Source of the DNA: a virus
Length of the DNA: 23,038 bases
Virus record (IMG/VR): IMGVR_UViG_3300005613_000425
Span: 1-23,038 of that record
Direction: 5' to 3' (one strand)
Part shown: one piece after another, positions 1 through 12,081 of the stretch
How positions within the stretch are numbered: position 1 is the stretch's first letter
How the letters are laid out: each line of letters begins with the position of its first letter
Notes under the pieces: model-generated
What the model saw: only the letters and a program-made list of their open reading frames with translations
Told to the model about the DNA's origin: nothing
Database searches by the model: none
Program-made: the position numbers and the translations under genes

Positions 1-175
1 ATATATCTGCGAAGTCATCCAGAGATAAATCAACCGTAATACCGTCAGCCGCCCAGCCTAAGATATACACGTCACACTCTTTTGGATTCTTCGCTGTGGT
101 TGCGCCGCCAATATCCTGAGTCTTGATCAACACATTCCCGCCGCCGGGTAGCGGGCAACTAATAATCGGGATCAC
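1..175 (-). CDS. Hypothetical protein, 3' end outside window (partial)
   Basis: A reading frame starts with GTG at 173-175 and stays open to the window edge (58 codons). The GTG overlaps the TGA stop of the metallophosphoesterase gene in a GTGA arrangement, the same coupling used at the endolysin start, which is why I accept this start. The visible product begins MIPIISCPLPGGGNVL and continues through a segment reading CDVYILGWAADGITVDLSLD. It has no signal peptide or motif that I recognise. Its position at the end of the DNA-metabolism operon suggests a small accessory protein. Function unknown; the call rests on the open frame and the coupled start only. Confidence 0.55.
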   Translation of the reverse strand, partial: MIPIISCPLPGGGNVLIKTQDIGGATTAKNPKECDVYILGWAADGITVDLSLDDFADI

Positions 176-1338
176 GCTTTTACCTCATCAATACCAACTT
201 TGAATCGACTATGCTCGCCGTATTCCTTATCGAGTATAACGCAGGACATCGACCTAGCAGACCCGTAACCAGAAGCTGAATGGTACGCATCCGGTGGGCA
301 CAAGACGCCAAACGATTCCAAGTGCAAGCCGCCCATCTCTGTCACAGTACGGTGATGGATATGACCGTGATAAAGGTATCGGTGTTTAGTCCGGCCCCAT
401 TCCTCTGCGTAGTCTCTCGTAACAGCTTCGTAGAGTGCCTGAGTCTTCACCCGGTCCCCGTGGTGCATAACAACTAGGTTCTTGCCCCATTCAAAATGAA
501 TCCACTTTGAGAAGTTATCGAACACTTTTACCCGTGGCTCATTATGGAAGTACAAGCGCATCATCTCATTCAGCCAGAGACTCGCATCTGGATCGTGGTT
601 ACCTCTTACGTTGATCAGCCAAACTTCCTTGTGCGTCTCCAGCATCCGGGTGATCAGGACTTGAAAGAGATTACCGACAATACGAATGACTCGGCCTAGC
701 CTTCCATCGACATCGACGGGCGTTCCTTTTGCAGTCTTGTTGTCTCCGCTATTCGCATGGAGAAAGTCACCCAAGTTAATCAGTGCGCCTACTTCCGATT
801 CACCTGCCGCAGAGACCAGCTTATCGACAGCTTTAATCAATACGTCTTGGGCTATGTTTGTATCCCAATCGTCACCACCCGTCTCAGGAGACCAGCACAG
901 CGCGTTTAAATGATGATCTCCAATGAGGTAGGCCGATAGCCTGTCTTCGTTCTTCGCCGCTTGTGGGGCTTCTACGGGCGTGTAAAGGCCATCTACTTCT
1001 TCGAGGAATCCGGCCTTGAATGCTTCAAGCGCCGCCTCAAGCATTGCCTCTTTGTCAGCCATGGACTTAACCCATTGACCAACTGGCTTCCCGTCTTCGT
1101 TGTAGTAGGTGGAGACGCCCCGGACTTTAAACACATCGGGGACTGTGTGAGTCATATCATGCTCAGGCGAGTAGCCCTGCTTCGCGGCCTTGCCTCTTAT
1201 TAAGCGGATGCAGTCTCTAGCCACCCACCTCGAACTTAAACCAAGCTGTTCTGCTATTTTGGTGTAGCCCAAGCCCTGCTCATGAAGCTCTATGATCCTG
1301 CGCTGTCTGTCAGTTGTACAATACTCAAGTAATGACAT
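172..1338 (-). CDS. HTH-metallophosphoesterase (calcineurin-like) phage protein
   Basis: 388 residues. The first ~50 form a predicted helix-turn-helix (RQRRIIELHEQGLGYTKIAEQLGLS), typical of homeodomain-like or resolvase-type DNA-binding segments. From about residue 136 the calcineurin-like metallophosphoesterase motifs appear in order: GDHH (140-143), NLGD (188-191), GNHD (246-249), MHHGD (301-305) and HGHIHH (334-339). These supply the His, Asp and Asn ligands of a two-metal centre, so the protein is probably an active phosphodiesterase or nuclease, perhaps brought to DNA by its HTH. The ATG follows a strong Shine-Dalgarno (GGGGGGAG) in a 20-base spacer after the NinB-like gene. Substrate is unknown; relatives occur beside phage replication genes. 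The enzyme class is confident, the biological role is not. Confidence 0.88.
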   Translation of the reverse strand: MSLLEYCTTDRQRRIIELHEQGLGYTKIAEQLGLSSRWVARDCIRLIRGKAAKQGYSPEHDMTHTVPDVFKVRGVSTYYNEDGKPVGQWVKSMADKEAMLEAALEAFKAGFLEEVDGLYTPVEAPQAAKNEDRLSAYLIGDHHLNALCWSPETGGDDWDTNIAQDVLIKAVDKLVSAAGESEVGALINLGDFLHANSGDNKTAKGTPVDVDGRLGRVIRIVGNLFQVLITRMLETHKEVWLINVRGNHDPDASLWLNEMMRLYFHNEPRVKVFDNFSKWIHFEWGKNLVVMHHGDRVKTQALYEAVTRDYAEEWGRTKHRYLYHGHIHHRTVTEMGGLHLESFGVLCPPDAYHSASGYGSARSMSCVILDKEYGEHSRFKVGIDEVKA

Positions 1339-1358
1339 CGTCTCCCCCCGGATAGATG

Positions 1359-1754
1359 CTAGTTGCGCCTCCCGAATGGCACGTTGATCGAGTATTTTTC
1401 GACTAGCAGTCTACTCAAGACTTCGTAAATATCGTTGACTTCCATCGGGTTGATCTTTCTGGTGGACTCAACGCCTGTTACAGCCTTCTGAATTGGACGC
1501 CACATATAATCTTTAATCAGGTACATAGTGGGTTCGATAGGTACGCCGTCTTTAATGACGGTCTTCATGTCCATACCATGTGCCGCCATAACACTAGCGA
1601 CCTCACGGCAATATGCGTGAATAGCATCGTTCTGCTTTCCGGTACGGGTGAGAGGGATGATCTCGTAGATATGGCCCTTGTCTTTGTTCGCCTGTATGTA
1701 CTCACAGAATTGATCGGCTTGGAACTTGTTGTTGACTAACCAACGCTCAGACAT
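1359..1754 (-). CDS. NinB-like recombination protein
   Basis: 131 residues. The pattern RTGKQNDAIHAYCREVA, then a central region ending LIKDYMWRPIQKAVTG and a C-terminus reading EVLSRLLVEKYSINVPF, matches a widespread phage family usually placed with NinB/Orf proteins. In lambda, Orf binds single-stranded DNA and assists RecBCD-independent recombination in place of RecFOR. The start overlaps the end of the upstream nuclease gene by 8 bases, and the weak Shine-Dalgarno suggests coupling. The neighbourhood (annealing protein, SSB, nuclease) supports a recombination role. I recall the family from sequence pattern; a remote-homology search would be needed to confirm the NinB fold. Confidence 0.65.
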   Translation of the reverse strand: MSERWLVNNKFQADQFCEYIQANKDKGHIYEIIPLTRTGKQNDAIHAYCREVASVMAAHGMDMKTVIKDGVPIEPTMYLIKDYMWRPIQKAVTGVESTRKINPMEVNDIYEVLSRLLVEKYSINVPFGRRN

Positions 1755-2223
1755 TTCTCAAGCCATCCCATAGAGCATCCATTGGCGCCATGTTTGCATA
1801 AGAAATTTTCCCAGCATCGGCCCGCTCAATGAATAGGCCAGTGTCATCGCCTTTATGAACAATTCGAGCCTTCTTCCAAAAATGCGGCTTCCACATCCAG
1901 CCCATCAAAGACACTTCATCCTTAGTGACAGAAGCAAAAACATAGCCTTGGACTTTGTAATCTTTTTGATCAAGAGCGACGTGACCATCTTGCGACATCG
2001 ACGGCGGCACGTTTCTTTTCTTCGCTTTGATATCAAGCGTTACGTCTTTCTTCCCATGAATAACGAAATCATAAGGACCGGGCAAACACCCGGTATATGT
2101 GTAACTAATTTTTCTAGCCAATAGCTCTTGAGCAAAAACAGATTCAGCTTGCCAGCCGCATATTTGTCCTGAGCCATCAGACAATATTGTCATTGAATTA
2201 TAGGGCTTGCCCGTATAAATCAT
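1747..2223 (-). CDS. PD-(D/E)XK-type endonuclease, possible resolvase
   Basis: 158 residues. A conserved Glu sits in GWQAESVFAQELL (E27), followed by GPYDFVI (D52) and LDIKAKKR (D64-x-K66). This is the E...D...DxK order of the PD-(D/E)XK nuclease fold, found in phage Holliday junction resolvases and other DNA-cutting enzymes. A basic stretch (KAKKR) follows the catalytic strand. The length is normal for a single-domain resolvase-like protein. ATG overlaps the upstream TGA (ATGA) and is preceded by AAAGGG. Between a replication-like gene and a NinB-like gene, a structure-specific nuclease acting on recombination intermediates is the simplest reading. Specificity is not readable from sequence. 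Confidence 0.72.
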   Translation of the reverse strand: MIYTGKPYNSMTILSDGSGQICGWQAESVFAQELLARKISYTYTGCLPGPYDFVIHGKKDVTLDIKAKKRNVPPSMSQDGHVALDQKDYKVQGYVFASVTKDEVSLMGWMWKPHFWKKARIVHKGDDTGLFIERADAGKISYANMAPMDALWDGLRNV

Positions 2224-2603
2224 GCCGTTACCCTTTCACCGTCACGAGTAACGTACTGACCATAAGCTTGTAGACAGTGGCTCCGAAAAATCTCGGAGTT
2301 AAGGAAGTCATGGGTAAGATCGTCAAGTTGCGTCCATTGCTTTAAGCCGATGTTACCAGAATTTGTCTGCATTTTCTCTGCAAATGGACTGATCCCCTTT
2401 TCCATGTCAGCGGCACGTTTAAGCCATGAGGTTATGAACTGCTTGATACCTCGCGGCGTCTTACGTTTCTTGGGGTTGGCATCGCACCACATAGCCATCG
2501 CATTAAGCTCGGCAAAGACATCGACAGTTGAATAGGCCTGTTGCAGTTGAATCAGGTATTCATCATCGGGTTCGTAGTAAGTACCATCGTTTAAAATAAT
2601 CAT
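2220..2603 (-). CDS. Putative replication-associated protein (C-terminal replisome-organiser-like domain)
   Basis: 127 residues from the ATG at 2601-2603. A GTG six bases further upstream is also open, but GGGAAG lies directly against that GTG and at 5 bases from the ATG, so I prefer the ATG. The core (about residues 28-68) reads VFAELNAMAMWCDANP then KKRKTPRGIKQFITSWLKRA. This pattern, with the Asn-Pro, a basic stretch and FI-x-WL-x-RA, is common at the C-terminal ends of phage replication initiator or helicase-loader proteins. Here it is not preceded by a winged-helix DNA-binding part, so the protein is either a short stand-alone version or works with a partner. Replication is inferred from the motif and from neighbouring recombination genes. 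Confidence 0.55.
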   Translation of the reverse strand: MIILNDGTYYEPDDEYLIQLQQAYSTVDVFAELNAMAMWCDANPKKRKTPRGIKQFITSWLKRAADMEKGISPFAEKMQTNSGNIGLKQWTQLDDLTHDFLNSEIFRSHCLQAYGQYVTRDGERVTA

Positions 2604-2623
2604 CCACACTTCCCTTTTAATGC

Positions 2624-2637
2624 CGGAGCAAGCTCCG
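2624..2637. repeat. Short inverted repeat before the replication-type gene
   Basis: CGGAGC-AA-GCTCCG on the plus strand is a perfect 6-base inverted repeat. As RNA it would fold as a 5-base stem with a CAAG or CTTG loop. It is not followed by a T tract on either strand, so it is not an intrinsic terminator. It lies 21 bases upstream of the ATG at 2603 and could be a binding site or an RNA processing site. Confidence 0.45.
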
Positions 2638-2642
2638 ACAAA

Positions 2643-2765
2643 TCAGTTAATTAGTAATGACGAGCTTTGATTACTGTATCGAATCTTGACATCTATCCGC
2701 TTGACCTGCTCTCGGCCTGCGGGGCGCATCATGGAGAGGGTCAACTCCGTCTCCGAGGTTTTCAT
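2643..2765 (-). CDS. Possible 40-residue protein with start codon in a hairpin loop
   Basis: ATG at 2763-2765 opens a 40-codon frame encoding MKTSETELTLSMMRPAGREQ and continuing with VKRIDVKIRYSNQSSSLLIN. A GAGG lies only 3 bases upstream, closer than ideal. I do not recognise the product. In its favour are a Shine-Dalgarno-like sequence, a start held in a distinctive hairpin, and an otherwise unexplained gap. Against it are the short length, the cramped ribosome site, and the fact that the same frame stays open far upstream, so the coding signal may be chance. Confidence 0.25.
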   Translation of the reverse strand: MKTSETELTLSMMRPAGREQVKRIDVKIRYSNQSSSLLIN

Positions 2766-2774
2766 ATTCCTCGG
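2753..2774 (-). promoter_or_regulatory. Hairpin sequestering a ribosome site and start codon
   Basis: In the minus-strand RNA, CCGAGG (2774-2769) pairs perfectly with CCTCGG (2758-2753) around a 10-base loop AATATGAAAA. The GAGG Shine-Dalgarno lies in the 5' arm and the ATG of the 40-codon frame lies in the loop. Such an arrangement is known in translational operators. Function here is inferred; the repeat could equally be a DNA-binding site. Confidence 0.4.
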
Positions 2775-2814
2775 CCTAACGCCCAGTAATCTCTGACAAA
2801 AAAGTAGATGAGGG

Positions 2815-2844
2815 AATACACGGAATGGTTTTGTGTTGTATAAT
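2815..2844 (+). promoter_or_regulatory. Candidate sigma70-type promoter on the plus strand
   Basis: TATAAT at 2839-2844 is a perfect -10 hexamer. The best -35 candidate is AATACA at 2815-2820 with an 18-base spacer, matching the consensus only at its last three bases, so the promoter would need activation or be weak. A start near 2851 would yield a transcript running straight to the terminator at 2907-2933. No protein gene lies downstream on this strand. The hexamer alone could be chance in an AT-rich stretch. Confidence 0.35.
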
Positions 2845-2850
2845 CCATTC

Positions 2851-2933
2851 ATCTTCTTGTCTGACCCCTTGAAGATATCATTGGTCCCTCCCTTGGACAA
2901 GTGATTAGGCCCCTTTACCGGGGCCTTTTTTTT
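2851..2933 (+). ncRNA. Candidate small structured RNA (about 83 nt)
   Basis: The proposed RNA would start just after TATAAT and end at an intrinsic terminator. It contains three potential hairpins: ATCTTC (2851-2856) with GAAGAT (2871-2876); TT-G-GTCC (2881-2887, one bulged G) with GGACAA (2895-2900); and the terminator stem (2907-2926). It lies opposite the gene direction, almost entirely between genes, reaching only the stop codon of the HTH gene at 2932. It has no open frame worth calling. Phage small RNAs of this size can act on host or phage messages, but no target is evident. I know of no matching described family. The structures are hand-drawn, not computed. Confidence 0.35.
2907..2933 (+). 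terminator. Intrinsic terminator, plus strand
   Basis: AGGCCCC (2907-2913), a six-base loop TTTACC and GGGGCCT (2920-2926) form a perfect 7-base, GC-rich stem followed by an uninterrupted T tract to 2933. This is a textbook rho-independent terminator for rightward transcription. Read leftward, the stem is preceded by A residues and followed by TAATCACTT, so it should not terminate the phage operon efficiently, though it could pause polymerase or be an RNase III target. Its orientation against all the genes is the notable point. Confidence 0.72.
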
Positions 2934-3138
2934 ACCTGATAAACCACTCGGCAATCCGCACTGACTCACCGTACCGATTGAGCACTGGCTTCATGTTTGT
3001 CTGGATCTCGTGACCTTCATGCCGCAACTCTGAGATACGCGCCGGGGTCTCAATAACTCCCAGCTCATCCCATGCGTTCAGCCTGTTTAATACCTTGCCT
3101 TGCTTGAGGTACTGAAGTACCCGATCTTTCTGACTCAT
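2932..3138 (-). CDS. Small helix-turn-helix DNA-binding protein (HTH_39-like)
   Basis: 68 residues. The opening MSQKDRVLQYLKQGKVLN, then NAWDELGVIETPARISELRHEGHEI, matches the short helix-turn-helix family seen in many phages and plasmids (HTH_39 type), in which the A-RI-ELR-x-GH segment is the hallmark recognition helix plus wing. The rest (VLNRYGESVRIAEWFIR) would form the closing beta strands. It probably binds DNA as a regulator or a replication accessory. ATG overlaps the upstream TGA (ATGA) and has GGAGA six bases upstream. The stop abuts the T tract of the plus-strand terminator. Family is fairly clear, target unknown. Confidence 0.75.
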   Translation of the reverse strand: MSQKDRVLQYLKQGKVLNRLNAWDELGVIETPARISELRHEGHEIQTNMKPVLNRYGESVRIAEWFIR

Positions 3139-3494
3139 ACCTTGTCTCCAAACTCTTCAAGAAACGGTTCGTTAAGCTCTAGCACCCGGCGAGCACGGCA
3201 CAGAAAGCCGCCCCCCCCCTCGTGCGCCCGACGTGAACACCCGACACTTTGCAAGTCTGGGTTCTGCATCTGGTAGTTGTAGAACGCCTGTAGCCGCTCT
3301 AATGAACTAACCCGGTGACTAACAATCGTCGGGTTCTGTGGTTGCTCTTCCAGCATCTCAATGTACTCACAGATCGCCATTAGTGAGCCGATGTCCTTAC
3401 CTCTGAACACCATGATTGGCTCATCCTCTGGCAAGACATACCCGCTTATGTGGTTCATCTTTCCATCAATTACTGGATACTTTGGATCGCTCAT
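3135..3494 (-). CDS. Conserved phage protein of unknown function
   Basis: 119 residues. The N-terminal half (GYVLPEDEPIMVFRGKDIGS, then a long helix ending EYIEMLEEQP) recalls a widespread small phage protein seen near replication and recombination genes, but I know of no assigned activity. The middle reads ERLQAFYNYQMQNPDLQSVG, followed by CSRRAHE and a four-glycine run encoded by nine consecutive G residues. The C-terminus is acidic and helical. No membrane segment is visible. The ATG follows AGGGAGATAACA, a good ribosome site. The G tract might shift frame by slippage or by sequencing error, but the frame as given stays open to a sensible end. Confidence 0.6.
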   Translation of the reverse strand: MSDPKYPVIDGKMNHISGYVLPEDEPIMVFRGKDIGSLMAICEYIEMLEEQPQNPTIVSHRVSSLERLQAFYNYQMQNPDLQSVGCSRRAHEGGGGFLCRARRVLELNEPFLEEFGDKV

Positions 3495-3496
3495 TG

Positions 3497-3706
3497 TTAT
3501 CTCCCTAAATCAAGAAACGACTCAAAGGTTTCATCGTAGTAATCAGCGAAGTCCAGAATGCGAGTAAGGGTTGCATCCTTTGCATTCCTCCAGCGCTGAA
3601 TAGTCATCTCAGAAACCTCGAAGTCTTTTGCCATCTGGCGATTAGTGACGCCCATCTGTTTTTGCGCCGCACGAAGCGACGCACCTACATCAAAATGGAA
3701 TGTCAT
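3497..3706 (-). CDS. Cro/C1-like (XRE family) helix-turn-helix regulator
   Basis: 69 residues from the ATG at 3704-3706. A longer frame opens at 3805, but its first 33 codons lie inside the SSB-like gene and carry no domain. The core reads LRAAQKQMGVTNRQMAKDFE, then VSEMTIQRWRNAKDATLTRI. This is an XRE-type HTH: helix 2 (NRQMAKDFEV) and recognition helix 3 (SEMTIQRWR). The C-terminus (FADYYDETFESFLDLG) is the usual closing helix. The small size and lack of an oligomerisation or cleavage domain make it Cro-like rather than CI-like. It overlaps the SSB-like gene by 17 bases. A possible target is the inverted repeat in the control region at 4990-5003; this is inference. Confidence 0.78.
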   Translation of the reverse strand: MTFHFDVGASLRAAQKQMGVTNRQMAKDFEVSEMTIQRWRNAKDATLTRILDFADYYDETFESFLDLGR

Positions 3707-3983
3707 CGAACTGCTCTGTTGGAGTTGCGACGGATTCTCTGACTTGCTGAACGCCATCCGCATGAACTTTTGCCGGGTCTGGCTCCCATGTGTCGAGCTT
3801 GGCATAAATCTTATCTCCGCTTTTTGCTTTAAGAACTTGAAGGTTTACCCAGTCGCCAGACTGAGAATTCAAAAAGGGGACAAACTCCGACTTCTTGACT
3901 GATAGGTTGCACACCACAAAGTCTGGTGCATTGTCTTTACGCTTGCAGATTAGGCCATCTGCGAACACTGTTTCTTTACTCAT
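3690..3983 (-). CDS. Probable single-stranded DNA-binding protein with SSB-like C-terminal tip
   Basis: 97 residues. The first ~70 (VFADGLICKRKDNAPDFVVC, NLSVKKSEFVPFLNSQ, WVNLQVLKAKSGDKIYAKLD) alternate short beta strands with basic loops and look like a compact OB-type fold seen in phages. The chain ends EQFDDIPF: an acidic tail with a terminal Pro-Phe, the signature of bacterial SSB C-termini that recruit host repair and replication proteins. It is shorter than E. coli SSB (about 178 residues) and lacks the long linker. ATG overlaps the upstream TGA (ATGA) behind GGAGAG. Its place right after the annealing protein fits. The ssDNA-binding call relies on the tail and context. Confidence 0.72.
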   Translation of the reverse strand: MSKETVFADGLICKRKDNAPDFVVCNLSVKKSEFVPFLNSQSGDWVNLQVLKAKSGDKIYAKLDTWEPDPAKVHADGVQQVRESVATPTEQFDDIPF

Positions 3984-4573
3984 GCTGTCTCTCCCAAGAT
4001 TAGCTTGCGTGCTTCGTTAAACTCATTGCTTTTCAGATCACTACGCTCGGCAGTTGTGAAGATGCCGCCCTTACTAGGTGCCAGCCACAATGCCTTCTTG
4101 TCGTCGTTGGTGATCTCGCCCCATGCCTCTGCTACGGCCTCCCATGCCCGTAGAGCAAGGTGCTCTTTAATAAAGTACACAGACGCATAATTGCGCTGTA
4201 GTGCTTCGTTGTGAGCCAGTAGTGGCCCGGTGTCTTGTTGCTGTTGGATAGCGTGGGCAACCTCATCGGCTGACGCATACTCTGTGCCGCCAAACCCTAG
4301 TGCACTTAAGCACCTGCCAATTGCCGAGGTCTCCGCATTTTCGAGAGCTGAGGTGGCGTTGATCTTGCTCGCCGCTCGTACCTCTTCTGAATAACCAGTA
4401 GCCAAGAGACGGCCATCGTTATCCAAGATGCTGGCCTTCATAATCACCAGCACATCATTGGCCTCGACCAGCTCAGTCGAGATTGTGTAGTCAGGATGGG
4501 TGGCTCTAAACTCAGCTACCCGAAGTGCCACGGTCTTGTATTCTTTACCGTGAATTTTTACGACGCCATTCAT
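3980..4573 (-). CDS. Putative single-strand annealing recombinase (ERF/Rad52-like superfamily)
   Basis: 197 residues. The key block at about 70-109 reads KINATSALENAETSAIGRCL then SALGFGGTEYASADEVAHAI. This resembles the SA-x-ENAETSAIGRALAALG pattern of a large phage family that precedes SSB-like genes and is often described as ERF/Rad52-like annealing proteins. The N-terminal half is predicted beta-rich with strands around residues 30-60. The C-terminal third (WGEITNDDKKALWLAPSKGG, IFTTAER) is another block recurrent in these proteins. No ATPase motif is present, as expected for an annealing protein. ATG overlaps the upstream TGA (ATGA) behind AAGGAG. Recombination via annealing is inferred from pattern and neighbours. 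Confidence 0.62.
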   Translation of the reverse strand: MNGVVKIHGKEYKTVALRVAEFRATHPDYTISTELVEANDVLVIMKASILDNDGRLLATGYSEEVRAASKINATSALENAETSAIGRCLSALGFGGTEYASADEVAHAIQQQQDTGPLLAHNEALQRNYASVYFIKEHLALRAWEAVAEAWGEITNDDKKALWLAPSKGGIFTTAERSDLKSNEFNEARKLILGETA

Positions 4574-4758
4574 GGTCGGTCTCCTTGGTTTTCATATTCA
4601 TAACAATCGGCATAGCCTGCGTTGTACGCGTCAGACGCATCCAAGTGGCTCTTACCGATCTCGCAATCAGTCCAGCCACGCAGATAGTCTTGCTCTGCAA
4701 GTGTGATAAAGTCAGCTAGACGCGCATCTCTGTGCACGTCTTGAGGATGACGTTTCAT
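4570..4758 (-). CDS. Small phage protein of unknown function
   Basis: 62 residues. The segment YLRGWTDCEIGKSHLDASDA followed by YNAGYADCYEYEN has a repeated aromatic-Gly pattern (YLRGWTDC and YNAGYADC) that I have seen in short early proteins of several phages; the two halves may be an internal duplication forming a helical hairpin. No enzyme motif is present. The ATG has AGGGGG at 8 bases and an 11-base spacer from the upstream gene. It overlaps the annealing-protein gene by ATGA, so it is in the same transcript. Confidence 0.62.
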   Translation of the reverse strand: MKRHPQDVHRDARLADFITLAEQDYLRGWTDCEIGKSHLDASDAYNAGYADCYEYENQGDRP

Positions 4759-4769
4759 TCTGATCCCCC

Positions 4770-4970
4770 TTAGCGTTCGAGATCTACGATGTCGCCAATC
4801 ATGGCGTCATACATAGCTTTCAATTCAAGGTAGGATTGAGCTTGCAAGTCAGTGAGGCCATGCAAGTTATTGGCTCTGTCGATCTCAGCCAGTGCGGTGT
4901 CAATGCCATCGAGGATGGCGTTATAAGTGACGATCTGCTCGCCTAAGTCTTCGTTTTCATATACACACAT
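4770..4970 (-). CDS. Small helical protein, first gene of the DNA-metabolism operon
   Basis: 66 residues, acidic, and almost entirely predicted helix (YNAILDGIDTALAEIDRANN, then AQSYLELKAMYDAMIGDIVD), consistent with a short helical hairpin or coiled coil. I do not recognise the family. It is the first gene after the promoter-like region and has a strong ribosome site (AAGGGAGAAACATC before ATG). A leading position suggests an early-expressed small effector or structural adaptor, but nothing in the sequence proves it. Confidence 0.6.
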   Translation of the reverse strand: MCVYENEDLGEQIVTYNAILDGIDTALAEIDRANNLHGLTDLQAQSYLELKAMYDAMIGDIVDLER

Positions 4971-4989
4971 GATGTTTCTCCCTTGGTTA

Positions 4990-5003
4990 GTCCCACACGG
5001 GAC
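4990..5003 (-). promoter_or_regulatory. Inverted repeat in the leader, possible operator
   Basis: GTCCC-ACAC-GGGAC is a perfect 5-base inverted repeat. It lies between the proposed -10 and the first start codon of the DNA-metabolism operon. It could be an operator for the XRE-type regulator encoded within the operon, or a small hairpin at the 5' end of the message. No T tract follows. Confidence 0.4.
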
Positions 5004-5011
5004 ACAAACAT

Positions 5012-5039
5012 ATTATGTTATGTTTAGGGAGAATGCAAA
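5012..5039 (-). promoter_or_regulatory. Candidate sigma70-like promoter of the DNA-metabolism operon
   Basis: Read on the minus strand, TTTGCA (5039-5034) and CATAAT (5017-5012) are separated by 16 bases and match the -35 consensus at 4 of 6 and the -10 at 5 of 6. An overlapping alternative -10 is TAATAT. The surrounding 80 bases are AT-rich and lie between the endolysin stop and the first gene of the next block. No terminator is visible after the endolysin gene, so late transcripts may also read through. Confidence 0.5.
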
Positions 5040-5050
5040 CAGTTTTTGTT

Positions 5051-5407
5051 TTAGTTGTAGTAGGTCCACATGACGGGTGTGGTTTTGCGGGTATCGAGGT
5101 GCACGAAATTTTTACCAACACCTATGCCGTTGAAGCATCCCATCTTGAGAGCCTCATGCACAATATTCATACGCTCGAAGCCGTTGGACACTGCGATGTC
5201 ACAGGCGATGCCTTGGTTGTGTGTGCCGGGCTTTTCCTTTCTTTCCTCAGCGGGATGGGTCGCATCTCTCCAGCCGGAGGTTATGCGGAACGGAAAGCCA
5301 CATATCTCTCGGAGCATATCTAGCAGCTCAAGAAACTCGGGGTCCATGTTATCCCCACCTGTTCCCGTATGGGTACAGTCAAACTCTCTGATATTAAAAT
5401 ACTTCAC
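5051..5407 (-). CDS. Endolysin, M15-family D-Ala-D-Ala/L,D-type peptidase
   Basis: 118 residues, a single peptidase M15_3-type domain. Visible motifs are RITSGWRD (42-48), GTHNQGIACDI with ligands H63 and D70, and FVHLDTR with H103 and D105. Together they supply the zinc-binding and catalytic residues of peptidoglycan carboxypeptidases or endopeptidases. There is no signal peptide and no wall-binding domain, so it should need the holin upstream to reach the wall, as usual for phages of Gram-negative hosts. The start is GTG at 5407, overlapping the TGA of the tiny upstream gene (GTGA). It closes the lysis block. Substrate bond is not readable. Confidence 0.88.
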   Translation of the reverse strand: MKYFNIREFDCTHTGTGGDNMDPEFLELLDMLREICGFPFRITSGWRDATHPAEERKEKPGTHNQGIACDIAVSNGFERMNIVHEALKMGCFNGIGVGKNFVHLDTRKTTPVMWTYYN

Positions 5408-5532
5408 TTCTTTTTCTTCTTGGCTTTTGACAGCGCGATAGCGACAGCTTGCTTTTCTGGATAGCCTTCACCACGTAACAGGCTGATGTTCTTGCCGATA
5501 GTCTTGCGGCTTTTACCTTTCTGTAATGGCAT
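5404..5532 (-). CDS. Tiny lysine-rich conserved phage protein
   Basis: 42 residues: MPLQKGKSRKTIGKNISLLR, then GEGYPEKQAVAIALSKAKK and a lysine tail. This matches a very common small protein in phages of aquatic bacteria (MPLKKG-S-x-IS-NI-x-L-x-EGYPQKQAVAIAL-x-A-x), whose function is unknown. The strong basic character suggests nucleic-acid or membrane-surface binding. ATG overlaps the holin stop as TAATG. Its stop overlaps the endolysin start, so it sits coupled between two lysis genes, which may only be convenient packing. Confidence 0.75.
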   Translation of the reverse strand: MPLQKGKSRKTIGKNISLLRGEGYPEKQAVAIALSKAKKKKK

Positions 5533-5927
5533 TAGTTCCTCGCTACGCTCTTGGTCTTCTCGTAGGTTCTCAGGCCACCAAGCCCCAGCATACCCAAGAG
5601 TACAGGCATCATCTCGCTAAGGTCTAAGGGTGGAACGGTGACAGGGGATTCAGTGATAGTAAGTAGAAAATTGCAAACAGGAACAAACAAGTAGTTAGTC
5701 GCAAGACCGATAGCGCAAATCCATCCAGTAGCTGGACGCCAGCCTGCCACAAACATCGAATGACTTTGAGCCTCTTCCTTGTTAACTTCGATCTGAGCCT
5801 TGGCGATATCATGAGCTTGTCTCGTGGCTAGAGTAGATATCTCGTTAGCCAATCGGTAACGCTCATCGGCATCCGGTATAGCCTTATCCAACAACTTGGA
5901 TATAGGCAGGATCAGCTTATCTAACAT
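5532..5927 (-). CDS. Holin, GTA-type three-transmembrane family
   Basis: 131 residues from the ATG at 5925-5927. A longer TTG-started frame (5972) lies inside the upstream gene and adds no family residues. The family signature is clear: a helical N-terminus, then QSHSMFVAGWRPATGWICAI, a hydrophobic stretch to about residue 90, PPLDLSEMMPVLLGMLGLGG and LRTYEKTKS. This is the GTA_holin_3TM pattern known from Rhodobacter gene transfer agents and many phages. It would form pores in the inner membrane that release the M15 endolysin. The start overlaps the upstream gene by 11 bases and has no clear Shine-Dalgarno, so translation is probably coupled. Confidence 0.85.
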   Translation of the reverse strand: MLDKLILPISKLLDKAIPDADERYRLANEISTLATRQAHDIAKAQIEVNKEEAQSHSMFVAGWRPATGWICAIGLATNYLFVPVCNFLLTITESPVTVPPLDLSEMMPVLLGMLGLGGLRTYEKTKSVARN

Positions 5928-6189
5928 AGTACGTCGCAAGGCCAATAATCGACGATATGAGAATCCAGACAAAGCGCTCTGCGATCTTTACTGACTGAGC
6001 GTTATAGCCGACGATACCCTTCACGCTATCAAGGTCTGTCTCGTACTCATCAAGACGGTATTCAAGTCGATCAATGCGCGCACTTCCCGCAGTCAACTTC
6101 TCATCGACGCGAGCAATCATGGTCATCGCTTCGGTTAGCTTATCTAACTTAACTTCAATCCGATTAAGTCGTGCCGATTGATCATCCAT
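5917..6189 (-). CDS. Coiled-coil protein with C-terminal membrane anchor (XhlA-like)
   Basis: 90 residues. Residues 5-65 show heptad-like leucine, isoleucine and charged spacing (LNRIEVKLDKLTEAMTMIAR, RIDRLEYRLDEYETDLDSVK), indicating a coiled coil. Residues ~70-88 (RFVWILISSIIGLATYYV) form one transmembrane helix with a short basic end. This layout resembles hemolysin XhlA-type proteins, which are holin partners or lysis regulators. It directly precedes and overlaps the holin gene. The ribosome site AGAGG lies across the stop of the previous gene. A lysis-accessory role is likely but rests on topology and position. Confidence 0.68.
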   Translation of the reverse strand: MDDQSARLNRIEVKLDKLTEAMTMIARVDEKLTAGSARIDRLEYRLDEYETDLDSVKGIVGYNAQSVKIAERFVWILISSIIGLATYYVR

Positions 6190-6192
6190 GAC

Positions 6193-6345
6193 TTACCTCT
6201 TAGCTGTCTTCGCTGCGTCTTTAAATGCTTTGGCAGTTGGCGCGCCAGCAGTGCCGGGCTTACGCATACGCTCACCAGAACCAGAAGCAATGCGCTCCCG
6301 CTTCTTCATAATATTATAGTACAAACCTTTCTTTGGCTTCTTCAT
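6193..6345 (-). CDS. Tiny basic conserved phage protein
   Basis: 50 residues: MKKPKKGLYYNIMKKRERIA, then SGSGERMRKPGTAGAPTAKA and FKDAAKTAKR. This is a recurrent small phage protein with the pattern MKKPKKGLY-NI-xKRxRI-x-GSGE-MRKPG-x-GAPTA-x-AFK. The role is unknown. Strong positive charge and small size suggest virion DNA or capsid association, which is speculation. ATG overlaps the previous gene's TGA (ATGA). It sits between the DUF-type basic protein and the lysis genes. Confidence 0.75.
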   Translation of the reverse strand: MKKPKKGLYYNIMKKRERIASGSGERMRKPGTAGAPTAKAFKDAAKTAKR

Positions 6346-6650
6346 GCTTTCCTCGCTTTGTTCCTTTTTGAGATATTAGCCGCTATACGTCTAGCTTCTG
6401 CTTTAGAATCTGCGCCCCATGCTCTAAGCGACAAGAGCAAGCGGGTAGGTCTACCTTTGCTATCTCGCTCAGGCCCAGACATCCCACCCATCCGAGCAAG
6501 AAAGCTAGCACGGCGGGGATTGTCGCCAGACTTAACAGGACGGCGAAGATTGCTACCCGGATTTGCGCGTTCGTAGGACCGTCTTCCTGCTTCATTCAAG
6601 CCGCCTTTGGGATTCTTCCCTGCCTTACGTTGCCATGCTGGTGTGCTCAT
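6342..6650 (-). CDS. Basic conserved phage protein (DUF6321-like)
   Basis: 102 residues, very rich in Arg, Lys and Gly. The hallmark segments are AWQRKAGKNPKGGLNEAGRR, then SYERANPGSNLRRPV, FLARMGGMSGPERDSKGRPT and RLLLSLRAWG. These match a family common in aquatic phages (I associate it with DUF6321), with no assigned activity. The charge suggests nucleic-acid binding. A shadow frame inside encodes a hydrophobic peptide that I reject. ATG overlaps the upstream TGA (ATGA) and the gene is coupled downstream in the same way. Confidence 0.72.
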   Translation of the reverse strand: MSTPAWQRKAGKNPKGGLNEAGRRSYERANPGSNLRRPVKSGDNPRRASFLARMGGMSGPERDSKGRPTRLLLSLRAWGADSKAEARRIAANISKRNKARKA

Positions 6651-7045
6651 GGGTTTACCTTCGCCAATAGCATCTTTATTGCTACAGTTGTTGGGATGAT
6701 TGCCTTATACCAAGGCCAGAAGTCGTGGCCCAGCTCTTCCATGGCTTCACGCTCAACCCATGCCTTTGTCCAGTTATCAATGTACATATCACCGTAGCGT
6801 AGTACAGCATGGCCTCCGCCGTTCTTTGTATAGCAGCCACATATCTCAGCTTGAAAGGTAGCCAGTAGCCACCAGAATCTAAGCCATGACTTCTTACAGA
6901 TAACGTAATACAGGACAGATAGTGAGTAGTCCTCGCAATCGCCTCGAAACATTCCGTCAGAATCGCGCTTTAGTACGCGCCATCGGTCTCGACCTTTCAA
7001 ATCGTACTTGTATTTGTAGCAATCATTGAAGTGCTGTAGGTTCAT
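6647..7045 (-). CDS. Transglutaminase-like cysteine peptidase (BTLCP-type)
   Basis: 132 residues from the ATG at 7043-7045, which forms TAATG with the upstream stop; a GTG six bases earlier is also open. The segment FRGDCEDYSL carries the nucleophile Cys37, and GGGHAVLRYGDMYIDNW carries His79 and Asp90. This Cys-His-Asp spacing and the GDCEDY...GHAVL...DN pattern match bacterial transglutaminase-like cysteine proteinases (BTLCP, papain-like fold). The middle (ICKKSWLRFWWLLATF) is aromatic and could touch membrane. It follows the tail-fibre block and precedes lysis genes. Possible jobs are virion maturation, host protein cleavage or wall action; nothing in the sequence decides. Confidence 0.75.
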   Translation of the reverse strand: MNLQHFNDCYKYKYDLKGRDRWRVLKRDSDGMFRGDCEDYSLSVLYYVICKKSWLRFWWLLATFQAEICGCYTKNGGGHAVLRYGDMYIDNWTKAWVEREAMEELGHDFWPWYKAIIPTTVAIKMLLAKVNP

Positions 7046-7359
7046 TACCACGGAACGCCGTTATCAGTTGTTGGGTTCTTCTGCTCTTCAATCTTAGCTG
7101 TCAGAGAGTCTTGAATGCGTGTTACTTCATCAACACCCATAGCGTCAAATACCCACTGAAGTACAACCATTTCAGTTAGGTCATCGTAAGGGACAAAATC
7201 AGGGCTTGAGGCGTCGTATGTAAACGACTGAGTGCCGTAAGCAGACGCTGTGTACGTGTTGTCACCAACAGTCTCTGAGTCATTTACACGCCAGTGAGCA
7301 ACGATAACGCCGCCGTCAGCCGTGTTGTGTTCCATTGTAGATATAGTCCATGTAGCCAT
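7045..7359 (-). CDS. Small conserved phage protein after the tail fibre gene
   Basis: 104 residues: MATWTISTMEHNTADGGVIV, AHWRVNDSETVGDNTYTASA, and a C-terminal helix around VVLQWVFDAMGVDEVTRIQD. It fits a small family I have seen repeatedly in phages of aquatic bacteria (W-I-x-x-M-x-x-N-x-x-DGGV-x-x-AHWRV), probably a DUF family. It is mostly beta strands followed by one helix. The product is acidic and has no membrane segment. The location between fibre and peptidase suggests a virion or fibre-associated protein. There is a 15-base spacer with AAGGAG before its ATG. Confidence 0.65.
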   Translation of the reverse strand: MATWTISTMEHNTADGGVIVAHWRVNDSETVGDNTYTASAYGTQSFTYDASSPDFVPYDDLTEMVVLQWVFDAMGVDEVTRIQDSLTAKIEEQKNPTTDNGVPW

Positions 7360-7374
7360 TAGTTAGCTCCTTAA

Positions 7375-10300
7375 TTAAAACAAGTCATTCCAAGCTGTGC
7401 CGTCGTAACAGCGTAGCTTGCTTAAAGTACTATCAAAATAAATATCACCAGCCGCAGGAGACGAAGGCGCAGACGCTCTTGGCTCAAGACGCATAACGTC
7501 ATCTACGTGCAATGCTCTAGCAGGCAAATTAGTACCAATACCTAGCCGTGAAGTGCTTGCGTCCCAGCGCATACCTTCGGTGCCAGTGTCATCAAAAAAT
7601 CGGTAGTCCCCTCCGGCATTTATTTGTGCGGTATTAAAAGTGTCGGTTCCATCGGTTCTAGCAAACGTAATTGCACCGTAAGAAGACGCACCGCCTCTTG
7701 AAATGACGTTAAGAGACACTCCGCTATACTGAACGTCACCATAAGTATTAGTGCCGCCATCATCTTCCAGCCTTATTTGGGGGCTGTCTGACTTAATGTG
7801 AATTTCATGGGCAGGGTTTGTTTCTCCCAGACCTAGCCGTCCAGAGCTATCAAACCTAGCGTACTCCGTAGTGCCTGCATTATTTTTAAACGTAGTGTCG
7901 CCACGTAGACCGCCTGACAGGTAAAGGTCTTTCCATCTGTAGTCTGTTTGTCCAATATCTTCTGTAGCATCAGACAAAGCCCCTGTATTATCAGTAGGAA
8001 GCATTCCAGTGGATGCAAACCGAACACCTCCATGGTCAGTAGCGGAGGAATATATTGTTAAGTCGCCGTTTTTTGTACCAATATTACCGACTGTTGAGTT
8101 GCTTCTGAGGAATTCTACAATGGATCCGTCTGTGTTAAGGCGATTAAGCATAAGCACAGTATTTACATCCGCTGTGGCAGATGACCTTGTGATTTTGGTG
8201 AAACCGTCGTCGCCCGTCTCAAAACCATTTACAGAAATGCCAGAAGAAGTCTTCCCCACAAACAGATTGCCAGAGCTATCGATGCGCATGCGTTCGTTAT
8301 TATTAACACTAAACTGCATTGAATCGAAATTATTATCATAGATTAAAGCGCCAACATCATTACTAGCTTCGTCACTAAAATAAATTGCGGTTTGTGTATT
8401 ATCACCACCCGCAATAGTTATTGCTGATCCAGAGTAGTCGTCAGTTGTGCCGCTGTGAAAAAATGCCGTAGTGATGGCTTTCGGAGCAACACCCGCCCAG
8501 TTGCTTCCTGATCGAGATACTACTAATTTTTCTGTTGGCGCTGAGTCTCCAATACCAACGTTGCCATCGCTATCAATCCGCAATTGTTCCGTTAAAGAGT
8601 TTATGCGCCCCGTACTAAACGACATTGCGTTATAAGCTGGGTAGGTGGTGCTTCCTGAATTATCATCGAAGACTTTAATTTGTCCTCTAATAGCTTCTGA
8701 GGTAGAGCCATCCTCTGTCTTGAAGTTAATGGTTCCAATTACATCGCCGCTAGTCCATCCGCCGCCATCAAAGCTATTTGTAATATTAAGTGTTGCACCA
8801 TTCGTTTGATCATCGTTTCTCACTTCAAACGAACCATCATTAATAGTGATATCACCATTGACCGTTAAATCAATTCCCACCTCACCGTTGTTATCAAGAA
8901 CAACGTTTGTGAAAACGTGCTTAATTAAAAAAGAGTTTGTGCTAGTTGTGATTGCCTCATCCAGTCCGCTATCAATCGTAAGCGTATAAGGATCTGAGCC
9001 AGTGACAGCCGTGACTTCTTTGAAGTACACATCTGTATCACCATCGTTGTTAAACGAGATCCAATCACCAACAGCAAACGTCTCCCCGCCATCAATGTTA
9101 GTGACCACAACCGACGTTGCACCTGACGATGCACTAGCATTTATGTCTAGTGATTTCGTAGTCGTAATCTTGTGGTGTTGATCGCGCACAGCTCGCGCCT
9201 CAACAAGAGACGTTTCCAGTGGATCTACTAAGAATGCACCGCGTACTGGTGTCGGTGCTGTACCCGAAATCGTAGGGTCAAACTGACGATTGATAAGTCT
9301 GTAATGATGCTCTCTCGCCGATGTTGTATCCCCGCCGTACACGAGGATGCCATCAGTGCCGTCAATCTTAACCTCAATCGGTGGCGCATCACTGAAGCCT
9401 GTGCCATTTAAGAAGAAGTCATCAGGGTCAATGGCTGTCGCGTCGCTTGCATCAACACCTTCAAAGATTATTTTGTTATCAAACGCTGATTGATAAAGAC
9501 CTCTTAGCACAGGGACTCGCTCGCCTGTTCGCTTGGGTAAACGCAAGTTGTCAAAGATAACATCCGACAATCTCTCAAACTCAAAGTCGCCAATGAGTCG
9601 CGTGTTTTCAAAGTGGCCTGATCGAATCTTGGTTGTAATCCGAGCGAATAAGCTGTCGTCGGTTAGCAGGCTGCCAGCCGGGGCTTCAAAGTTATTCGAT
9701 CCACCTGCAATACACTGGTAATACGTGTTGCTGGTTGTGACCTTAACGATAGCAAGCCGCTCGATATCTTGCGTTGTTGTCGCACTAGACTCTACATAAT
9801 AAACGCGAGCCTTTTCTGTGAAGTAGCTAGTGTTTGTAAGTAACGTGCCGCTAGGTGCTTCGTAGCTATTACCAGAGCCAGCAGTACACTCATAAATCAA
9901 GCCAGAGGCGGTATTTAGAATAAACTCGCCTTCATAGTAATCGCGGGTTGTTGTTGTCGATGTTTCTTCCTGTTCATCGCCTCGATAGAAGTAGTCGATG
10001 TTAGTCTGGCCCATCTGCTGAATGACTGTGTTGCTAAAGTACACCTCACCCAAGCCAGTATTTAGCCGGAAGTTAGTGGCCTTCAGATTACAGTTTTCAT
10101 AGATCAGAGGCTCACAAATTGACCGACCGTTCGCATTTAGGTCGTCGCCCTCAATCTCGAAGTATGCACCTTCGCAATCCATGTTGCAGTTTTGGAAGAT
10201 CATCTTGTCTTGCGTGATTGCGTCAACGCCAGAGTATGTCGTTCCAAGAACGTGCCTAACGATGTTGAAGAAATTACAATTAACGAACGTCGCCTTGCCG

Positions 10301-12081
10301 CCAATAAGATGGTGCGTACTGTTTCGTGACGCCCAGTTTAAGCATGGCTGCTGGTATGTCTGACGCGGCACAAAGTCATCGTCATTTATTCCGTCAAAGA
10401 CGCAGTTTTGCCATACCATCTCGGGGAAGAAGTTTTTGCTTGTCTCGGGTGTGTACGCATAGAGGAAGCCGTCTTGGTTGCTATGCGCCCAATCACAGTT
10501 TTCTGCATATAGATAGCCGGGCTTTGTTTCATTCGCCCAAACCAAAACCTGCTTCGCGATATCTCGCAGATCACGTACTTTGAGGTTACGCATATAAAGC
10601 GCATTGCCACGGAAGAACATTGAATCCAATGCAATCCCGTTGATCTCACAATCAATAATGCTTGCTGTTGCCGCCTCGGTTGTGTCGTTGACGTTAATCG
10701 CATAAGCATTAGGCATGTTCTGGAATGTCACGCCTTCAATGTGGAATCGACCAGCACCCGTAAAGCCTATGCCGTGCTTATCAAAGCGAGCATTGAACAG
10801 CCATGCGTTACCCGGAATGCTCTCACCAACACCACCAACGGTAAGCGTAGAAAGAACTTGGTGCGTTAGCGTGATAGTCGTGTCAGTTTTTGACGCAACC
10901 GTATTAAACTCGCCAAGCGTTCCTGTTCTGCTAGTGCTGTTTGGAAGATAGGTATTACTCCAGCTAGACGCGATCTGATCGCCTGCTTCAAAGTTGTGGC
11001 CTGACTGAACAGTAATCGTTGTTGGCTCGTCAATTGTCTCGCCATTTACCTGAGCAATCTTCCAGTTACCATCAACAGTTGCGCCATCACCAATAATGGC
11101 AAAGTCATCAACGTCGATAGTAATTTGCGCGTTGTTTGTTAGGTTCCATGTGTTGCCTTGAAACATCCAACGACGCGCTATACCGCCAGCAGGGAAGCTC
11201 CAATCGGCATCAATGTCCATGGTTGTGCCGCCAAAAAGAATGATCTCAGCGGCATTACAGGCGTTTGTGAGCGCAACAGAATCTGAAACAGGGCCACTAC
11301 CATCTGGCGGGTTTATGTATTCATTAATGTGAGCAATGCTTTCTACATCAACAGAGTCGATCTGCTCCTGAACATTTCCGGTTAAGCCATCCAAATAGTT
11401 AAGCTCTGTGCCTGAGACAGTTACCGATGTTGAGTCAAGTGTGAATGGCGATGGAATCGTGACTGTCCCAGTAAATGTAGGACTATCAATAGGTGCCTTT
11501 GTCTCTAAGTCAGCGCCAATCTCTTGCAGCGCACCTTCAACGTCATTGGAGTCGTAATAGTTTCCAGCATCTTCAATAGTTACCGCGTCAGCAGAAACGC
11601 TAACAGTAGCGCCAGCAACATCAACCGCGCCAGTAGCATCAAACTTTAGGAACTTATCAGCACGAGTCGCCGCATCTGGAAGCTCCATAGAGATAGAATC
11701 TGAATCGGTAATAGGCTTGCGGATAGCAGAATTTACTGTGCGATTCGTTTGCTCACCTGCCAACCAAAGATTGTCAAAGTCGCTGTTTACCTCAGAGGCT
11801 AGGAAGTCACCAGAGTTTGTATAGTTCTGGTCACGCGAGTAAGGCATATCCCTGTAAAGGGTCATAATATCGCCAGCAGTAGCGCCTGACGTTAGGGTTA
11901 CGTTACCCCCATTGTCATTGCCTACGTTCGACACAGTGTAATCTGTGCCCTCTGAGAGAGCCGTGCCATTCTGTAAGACAACGATATGATCCTTGTCTAC
12001 GATCTCAAACGTATATGCGAATACTGTCTGTCCAGATGTCGCGGTGTATTGGTTACGGCTTGTGTTGTCTGCTACTGTCAT
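7375..12081 (-). CDS. Tail fibre/tailspike with T7-fibre-like N-terminus and beta-helix
   Basis: 1568 residues, the largest gene here. Residues 1-120 resemble the T7 tail-fibre attachment domain (YTFEIVDKDHIVVLQNGTAL, MTLYRDMPYSRDQNYTNSGD). Residues ~270-700 form a right-handed parallel beta-helix, rich in short Asn-Cys rungs (CEINGIALD, YMRNLKVRDL, NCNFFNIVRH), as in tailspikes that bind or cut surface sugars. Two copies of a short Tyr/Cys module follow (~715-755 and ~775-810). The C-terminal half has repeated R-D-S-G-x-x-G-G elements near 1168, 1264, 1410 and 1505, and a DYRWKDLYLSGGL segment. I see no S74 chaperone. ATG has GGAGG at 7 bases. Host recognition is the likely role; depolymerase activity is possible, not shown. 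Confidence 0.88.
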   Translation of the reverse strand: MTVADNTSRNQYTATSGQTVFAYTFEIVDKDHIVVLQNGTALSEGTDYTVSNVGNDNGGNVTLTSGATAGDIMTLYRDMPYSRDQNYTNSGDFLASEVNSDFDNLWLAGEQTNRTVNSAIRKPITDSDSISMELPDAATRADKFLKFDATGAVDVAGATVSVSADAVTIEDAGNYYDSNDVEGALQEIGADLETKAPIDSPTFTGTVTIPSPFTLDSTSVTVSGTELNYLDGLTGNVQEQIDSVDVESIAHINEYINPPDGSGPVSDSVALTNACNAAEIILFGGTTMDIDADWSFPAGGIARRWMFQGNTWNLTNNAQITIDVDDFAIIGDGATVDGNWKIAQVNGETIDEPTTITVQSGHNFEAGDQIASSWSNTYLPNSTSRTGTLGEFNTVASKTDTTITLTHQVLSTLTVGGVGESIPGNAWLFNARFDKHGIGFTGAGRFHIEGVTFQNMPNAYAINVNDTTEAATASIIDCEINGIALDSMFFRGNALYMRNLKVRDLRDIAKQVLVWANETKPGYLYAENCDWAHSNQDGFLYAYTPETSKNFFPEMVWQNCVFDGINDDDFVPRQTYQQPCLNWASRNSTHHLIGGKATFVNCNFFNIVRHVLGTTYSGVDAITQDKMIFQNCNMDCEGAYFEIEGDDLNANGRSICEPLIYENCNLKATNFRLNTGLGEVYFSNTVIQQMGQTNIDYFYRGDEQEETSTTTTRDYYEGEFILNTASGLIYECTAGSGNSYEAPSGTLLTNTSYFTEKARVYYVESSATTTQDIERLAIVKVTTSNTYYQCIAGGSNNFEAPAGSLLTDDSLFARITTKIRSGHFENTRLIGDFEFERLSDVIFDNLRLPKRTGERVPVLRGLYQSAFDNKIIFEGVDASDATAIDPDDFFLNGTGFSDAPPIEVKIDGTDGILVYGGDTTSAREHHYRLINRQFDPTISGTAPTPVRGAFLVDPLETSLVEARAVRDQHHKITTTKSLDINASASSGATSVVVTNIDGGETFAVGDWISFNNDGDTDVYFKEVTAVTGSDPYTLTIDSGLDEAITTSTNSFLIKHVFTNVVLDNNGEVGIDLTVNGDITINDGSFEVRNDDQTNGATLNITNSFDGGGWTSGDVIGTINFKTEDGSTSEAIRGQIKVFDDNSGSTTYPAYNAMSFSTGRINSLTEQLRIDSDGNVGIGDSAPTEKLVVSRSGSNWAGVAPKAITTAFFHSGTTDDYSGSAITIAGGDNTQTAIYFSDEASNDVGALIYDNNFDSMQFSVNNNERMRIDSSGNLFVGKTSSGISVNGFETGDDGFTKITRSSATADVNTVLMLNRLNTDGSIVEFLRSNSTVGNIGTKNGDLTIYSSATDHGGVRFASTGMLPTDNTGALSDATEDIGQTDYRWKDLYLSGGLRGDTTFKNNAGTTEYARFDSSGRLGLGETNPAHEIHIKSDSPQIRLEDDGGTNTYGDVQYSGVSLNVISRGGASSYGAITFARTDGTDTFNTAQINAGGDYRFFDDTGTEGMRWDASTSRLGIGTNLPARALHVDDVMRLEPRASAPSSPAAGDIYFDSTLSKLRCYDGTAWNDLF

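Follow-up and report, generated by a model that had tools for sequence, protein, structure and literature searches.

The window analysed here, a 23,038-nt stretch of viral DNA (IMG/VR record IMGVR_UViG_3300005613_000425), carries every likely gene on the minus strand, and the plus strand of its one long gap holds a promoter box followed by a terminator. Which RNA is encoded against the direction of the genes, and on which message would it act?

The plus-strand element and its genomic setting

In gene content the window resembles part of the genome of a podovirus-type phage. It encodes tail tubular proteins, an internal virion protein, a tail fibre, a holin and an endolysin, past which lies a series of small genes of early type, among them those for Cro-like and winged HTH proteins, NinB and a DNA repair exonuclease. 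None of the named phages searched is close to it, and the nearest matches of the tail protein are only ~31% identical. A host search in genome_contigs returned no relative of a virion protein, and scanning these contigs with the pattern of the small RNA (sRNA) gave no copy. An integrase was found in 0 of 11 related records (up to 38 kb, perhaps incomplete), so that a role of the sRNA in lysogeny is not suggested; the search for an RNA polymerase in related records has no bearing on its presence, since its own controls were silent. As a separate observation, a run of nine C (nine G on the coding strand) occurs at 3211–3219 inside gene 3135–3494, where it is read as GGGG while the homologue in L013 has GASS; sequence variation or a sequencing error is possible.

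The original prediction placed the element in the only long gap of a one-directional array. The gap at 2610–2931 is indeed the sole long one, but it is not otherwise empty, as it also houses a conserved structured RNA on the gene strand. The features of this region are:

2612–2799, minus strand: second conserved structured RNA, 5′ leader of gene 2220–2609, separate from the sRNA
2839–2844, plus strand: −10 box TATAAT of the sRNA promoter (variants in relatives limited to TATAAT, TATACT and TACAAT)
2850–2933, plus strand: small RNA gene, ~83 nt, three hairpins and a U8 tail
2851–2876, plus strand: hairpin 1, arms ATCTTC (2851–2856) and GAAGAT (2871–2876)
2878–2904, plus strand: hairpin 2, outer stem TCAT/GTGA, inner stem GTCC/GGAC, loop CUCCCUU
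2888–2896, plus strand: proposed seed CUCCCUUGG, loop and first stem bases, complementary to the Shine-Dalgarno (SD) sequence of the first early gene
2907–2933, plus strand: intrinsic terminator hairpin and T8 tract

The TATAAT box, the two short hairpins and the terminator are present as predicted, and the start of the RNA is predicted at ~2850–2852. The reservation about a weak −35 element was justified as well, since a plus-strand promoter scan passes no promoter at the sRNA and no clear −35 is seen. The terminator (AGGCCCC-TTTACC-GGGGCCT, 2907–2926, with T8 at 2926–2933) has a perfect stem of 7 bp, 6 of them G-C. It combines the most G-C pairs with the longest T-tract among the 12 terminator-like sites found in positions 1–12000, where 9.2 sites of any strength were expected. 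The folding check that had been proposed was favourable: the predicted energy of 2815–2940 is −36.3 kcal/mol compared with −26.2 ± 3.1 for shuffled sequences (z = −3.27; 0/200 shuffles as good). The sRNA hardly overlaps coding sequence and ends at the stop codon of the neighbouring gene. Thus, the description of an RNA transcribed against all genes holds for its orientation but probably not for its function, given that the conserved complementarity described below concerns a site 2 kb away.

Dyads overlap the −10 box of the sRNA promoter (2823–2850) and that of the early promoter (about 5006–5030); their arms vary by lineage but remain symmetric, resembling operators with changing specificity. 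Furthermore, in L020, L046, L064 and L074 a site ~40–50 bases upstream of the sRNA forms an inverted repeat with the 5′ arm of hairpin 1 (GATGAATG/CATTCATC, GAGGATAGG/CCTATCCTC and GGATGAGGA/TCCTCATCC), both sides of which change between lineages.

The gene-strand RNA at 2612–2799 is conserved in 32 distinct sequences. It has a closing stem GATTACTG/CAGTAATC, further stems with compensatory changes and highly conserved internal segments (GGGCGTTAGGC and GATAGATGTCAAGATTCGATAC), has no Rfam match to E 1, and precedes genes that vary. Its appearance is that of a riboswitch or ribozyme. A 40-aa gene at 2643–2765 (minus strand) was rejected in favour of RNA because relatives lack the start codon. 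In the far group, the same place (about 4701–4960 in L051) is occupied by a different conserved leader of ~245 nt with predicted structure, likewise giving no Rfam match.

Conservation and covariation of the small RNA

IMG/VR searches with the two flanking proteins recovered 27 and 50 loci, and the element is retained in many of these. With 12 close relatives as its basis, a covariance model detected 54 loci beyond the window, including weak but correctly placed matches, all of them antisense to the genes; three additional weak plus-strand matches are probably false. Two DNA-pattern scans extended the set by ~14 contigs, the model giving 22 matches on the loci so found, ~14 of them on new contigs, while the pattern matches L084, L087, L089 and L090 were rejected as chance matches. 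Overall, >60 IMG/VR contigs carry the sRNA in antisense orientation to the genes. The gene 3′ of it has been replaced several times in kind with the sRNA retained; L022 and L023, which carry a more distant gene-5 homologue in a different setting, are without it.

Joint treatment of all lineages by MAFFT and RNAalifold misaligned the stems (3 pairs) and was replaced by the covariance model from close relatives. In the resulting alignment of 53 distinct sequences, which is fitted to the model and includes the three weak, probably false plus-strand matches, 95.3% of the pairing cells are standard, compared with 35–52% when the partner is slid by 1–3 columns and 78% in shuffled alignments, of which 0/500 reach the observed pairing. 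Two-sided changes occur in 18 of the 21 pairs. A near-group alignment made from sequence only gives 99.6% pairing, with two-sided changes in three pairs. Read on the plus strand, one-sided changes are of the G-C to G-U type; an RNA from the minus strand would have A-C mismatches at these places. Since these changes and the U-tract fit the plus strand, this is the strand of the sRNA.

These comparisons establish a structured RNA on the plus strand together with its −10 box and terminator, which point to an independent transcription unit despite the weak −35. Covariation, which had been suggested as a check, is found in the stems with compensatory changes, and the loss of TATAAT and stems that would have spoken against the prediction is not seen: dozens of relatives have retained the −10 box, the U-tract and every one of the three stems, in support of a short structured RNA as the explanation. 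Among unpaired positions, CCCUU in the loop of hairpin 2 is the most conserved motif, present in nearly all lineages, while the hairpin 1 loop GAC(C/T)CC is conserved in near relatives only.

A candidate target in the early leader

The conserved loop has a counterpart at the start of the early operon, where the following features are found:

4770–4970, minus strand: first early-operon gene, 66 aa, uncharacterised, with unrelated proteins in its place in relatives
4978–4986, minus strand: proposed target CCAAGGGAG, 9 nt, SD of the first early gene
4987–5039, minus strand: early promoter-like site TTTGCA-N16-CATAAT (5039–5012) and leader start
4990–5003, minus strand: leader dyad or hairpin GTCCC-GTGT-GGGAC

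Gene 4770–4970 is the first after the endolysin and lies directly behind the promoter-like site. The palindrome in its leader, GTTCCAYGTGGAAC in relatives (e.g., at 2902 in L061) and GTCCCGTGTGGGAC in the window (4990–5003), resembles a bacterial parS site TGTTCCACGTGGAACA; it could form a hairpin at the 5′ end of the mRNA or else be bound by a protein.

The window loop is the exact complement of the SD. Taken alone, this match means little: 25–30% of whole-sRNA shuffles have a 9-nt complement to some start region, and a whole-sRNA target search restricted to the window is not significant. Within the near group, however, the 9-mer is the longest AAGGG-centred gene-strand complement in nearly all loci holding the region, and it sits at the SD of the first early gene, 1.4–2.5 kb from the sRNA. 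The complementarity persists where the first early gene is of a different type (MSEF, MARF, MCVY or MSKIG) and even in L009, L018, L019 and L020, in which the leader hairpin preceding the SD is different too. The loop of hairpin 1, serving as an internal control, has no consistent target across relatives.

Comparison between lineages further establishes that this complementarity is partly compensatory. It recurs in nine lineages, with 10 nt in L061 (loop UCCCUUGUAA, leader UUACAAGGGA), 8 nt in L065, 7 nt in L074 (UCCCUUC:GAAGGGA) and 6 nt in the far group (CCCUUC and GAAGGG), where the match is thus weaker. In two lineages the seed has moved out of the loop: L013 lacks the motif there and has CUCCCUU in the linker before the terminator, facing AAGGGAG in the leader, while in L025 the linker seed and the early SD have changed together (CUCCCGU:ACGGGAG, 7 nt). 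When the sRNAs and leaders of the nine lineages were permuted, using the same stretch for all (hairpin 2 plus linker), the true assignment, with a sum of 71 nt (mean 60.7), was at the top of all permutations (p = 2.6e-4), or p = 0.009 by duplex energy; these p values are optimistic, as the linker was added after L013 and L025 had been seen and the lineages share ancestry. Among five well-separated lineages the true assignment is the sole best (1/120). Loci outside the set from which the idea was formed agree, with 9 nt in L086, 6 nt in L105 and 7 nt in L111, whose SD is rebuilt. On the other hand, AAGGG is a common SD core, a point against this target.

We consider it probable, on the strength of these alignments, that the seed pairs with the SD of the first early gene, blocks ribosome binding and lowers expression of the early operon. 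Host RNA polymerase would transcribe the sRNA from a sigma70-like promoter, against the direction of the genes, and transcription would stop at the sRNA's own terminator to yield an RNA of ~83 nt with three hairpins. The C-rich loop CUCCCUUGG would then act as seed on CCAAGGGAG, the SD of the gene that opens the leftward early operon, and the pairing would keep ribosomes from binding. The simplest interpretation is that a loop seed blocks the SD. We infer expression of the sRNA, the pairing itself, repression rather than activation, and help by Hfq through the U-tail, the U7–8 tail being only a suggestive hint of the latter. The sRNA could serve as a timing device, as a brake on the early genes or as a barrier to superinfection.

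Alternatively, the sRNA could be a genuine trans-acting regulator of a general anti-SD kind, whose C-rich loop is mainly directed at other messages, such as host AAGGG-type SDs or gene 4. We regard this as possible but rather unlikely. The conservation of CCCUU across nearly all lineages would suit such a regulator, bacterial sRNAs with anti-SD loops are known (PMC10746234), and the Betaproteobacteria toxic sRNA, with its CUCCUC loop, weakly matches L051. Moreover, the start region of gene 4, just beyond the second structured RNA, also pairs in a lineage-matched way (permutation p = 6e-4), over 9 nt in L074 and 8 nt in L048. The near lineages argue against it, as gene 4 matches over 5–7 nt there and the early leader over 9–10 nt, and so does the joint change of seed and early SD in L025. 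In the commonest far group the order is reversed, the gene-4 start (6–9 nt) matching better than the early leader (6 nt); because of this and of the permutation result, the early leader is a tentative choice of target and gene 4 a second candidate. The sRNA may even control both ends of the early region.

An improbable reading is that of a cis-antisense unit like lambda OOP, in which opposite-strand transcription, or the RNA itself, disturbs the leftward operon RNA or triggers its processing. The sRNA does lie inside the operon on the opposite strand, and read-through operon RNA holds its perfect complement. It covers, however, no coding sequence past the neighbour's stop codon, the 3′ neighbour differs in kind among relatives, and plain cis-antisense action requires neither a conserved loop nor covarying stems. 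It is very improbable that the structure forms in the leftward mRNA or is part of a replication origin: a structured gene-strand leader adjoins it and dyads flank the promoter, but the U-tract and the G-U pairs fit the plus strand only. Finally, a terminator that merely protects the operon against antisense transcription, TATAAT being there by chance and no functional RNA being made, would agree with the terminator being the strongest part of the element and with the weak −35, but this is hardly credible and already disfavoured, since hairpins 1 and 2 covary and the −10 box and loop are conserved together across lineages.

Relation to known small RNAs

To our knowledge, a target backed by cross-lineage comparison exists for very few phage small RNAs, most of them known from temperate phages that infect enteric bacteria. 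The family described here spans >60 environmental phage contigs, matches no Rfam family and offers a seed and a target open to testing. It suggests that early genes are under RNA control in phages for which the integrase search was negative, and the lineage-matched changes make the pairing directly testable. A bolder and doubtful extension is that in lytic aquatic phages the lineage-specific sRNA–leader pairs amount to an RNA code for immunity or timing. Under an immunity code, the sRNA of a resident phage would silence the early operon of any incoming phage whose leader matches, and escape would proceed by joint change of seed and leader, even by a shift of the seed from loop to linker.

No Rfam family exceeds its gathering score for the sRNA. 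The best weak matches come from the far relative L051: anti-hemB (RF02837), with 30.5 bits against a cut-off of 49.5, and the Betaproteobacteria toxic sRNA (RF02278), with 23.9 against 50; the window sRNA scores 16–18 bits with both. These two families share a similar hairpin-plus-terminator plan, but the scores are far below the cut-offs.

The alpha-r14 or cuckoo sRNAs such as NfeR1 are Alpha-proteobacterial and thought to act via anti-SD motifs (PMC10746234). They resemble our RNA in having three hairpins with unpaired anti-SD motifs, the motif being conserved while the stems vary. Unlike the present RNA, they are bacterial and carry CCUCCUCCC in all three hairpins; reading the phage sRNAs by eye showed CCUCCUCCC to be absent from the unpaired regions of the three hairpins, and the phage-encoded RNA has instead one CCCUU-type seed with a lineage-matched target. 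Lambda OOP RNA (77 nt) and P22 sar (68/69 nt) are also short (PMC12197685), possess their own promoter and terminator and belong to the early region, OOP running against early genes. OOP, however, is cis-antisense with extended complementarity to cII, whereas here the neighbouring coding sequence shares no such complementarity and a short loop seed faces a distant leader.

In P1 and P7, the c4 RNA is processed from the ant transcript itself. This antisense RNA has been described as blocking the ribosome-binding region of a phage mRNA by loop pairing; in temperate phages it targets ant and is the basis of heteroimmunity (PMC12197685). In both cases loops of a phage RNA pair, or would pair, where ribosomes bind a phage mRNA, and the pairing specificity differs among related phages. 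Unlike c4, the sRNA has a promoter and a terminator of its own, on the opposite strand, and its candidate target is ~2 kb distant; nor did the search for an integrase find one. No ant antirepressor mRNA is adjacent, the candidate targets encoding small uncharacterised proteins 1.4–2.5 kb away, and the c4 Rfam model gives no gathering match and is absent among matches up to E 10. As a mechanism, c4 nevertheless provides the best comparison: the sRNA would work like P1 c4 RNA while standing outside the c4 family.
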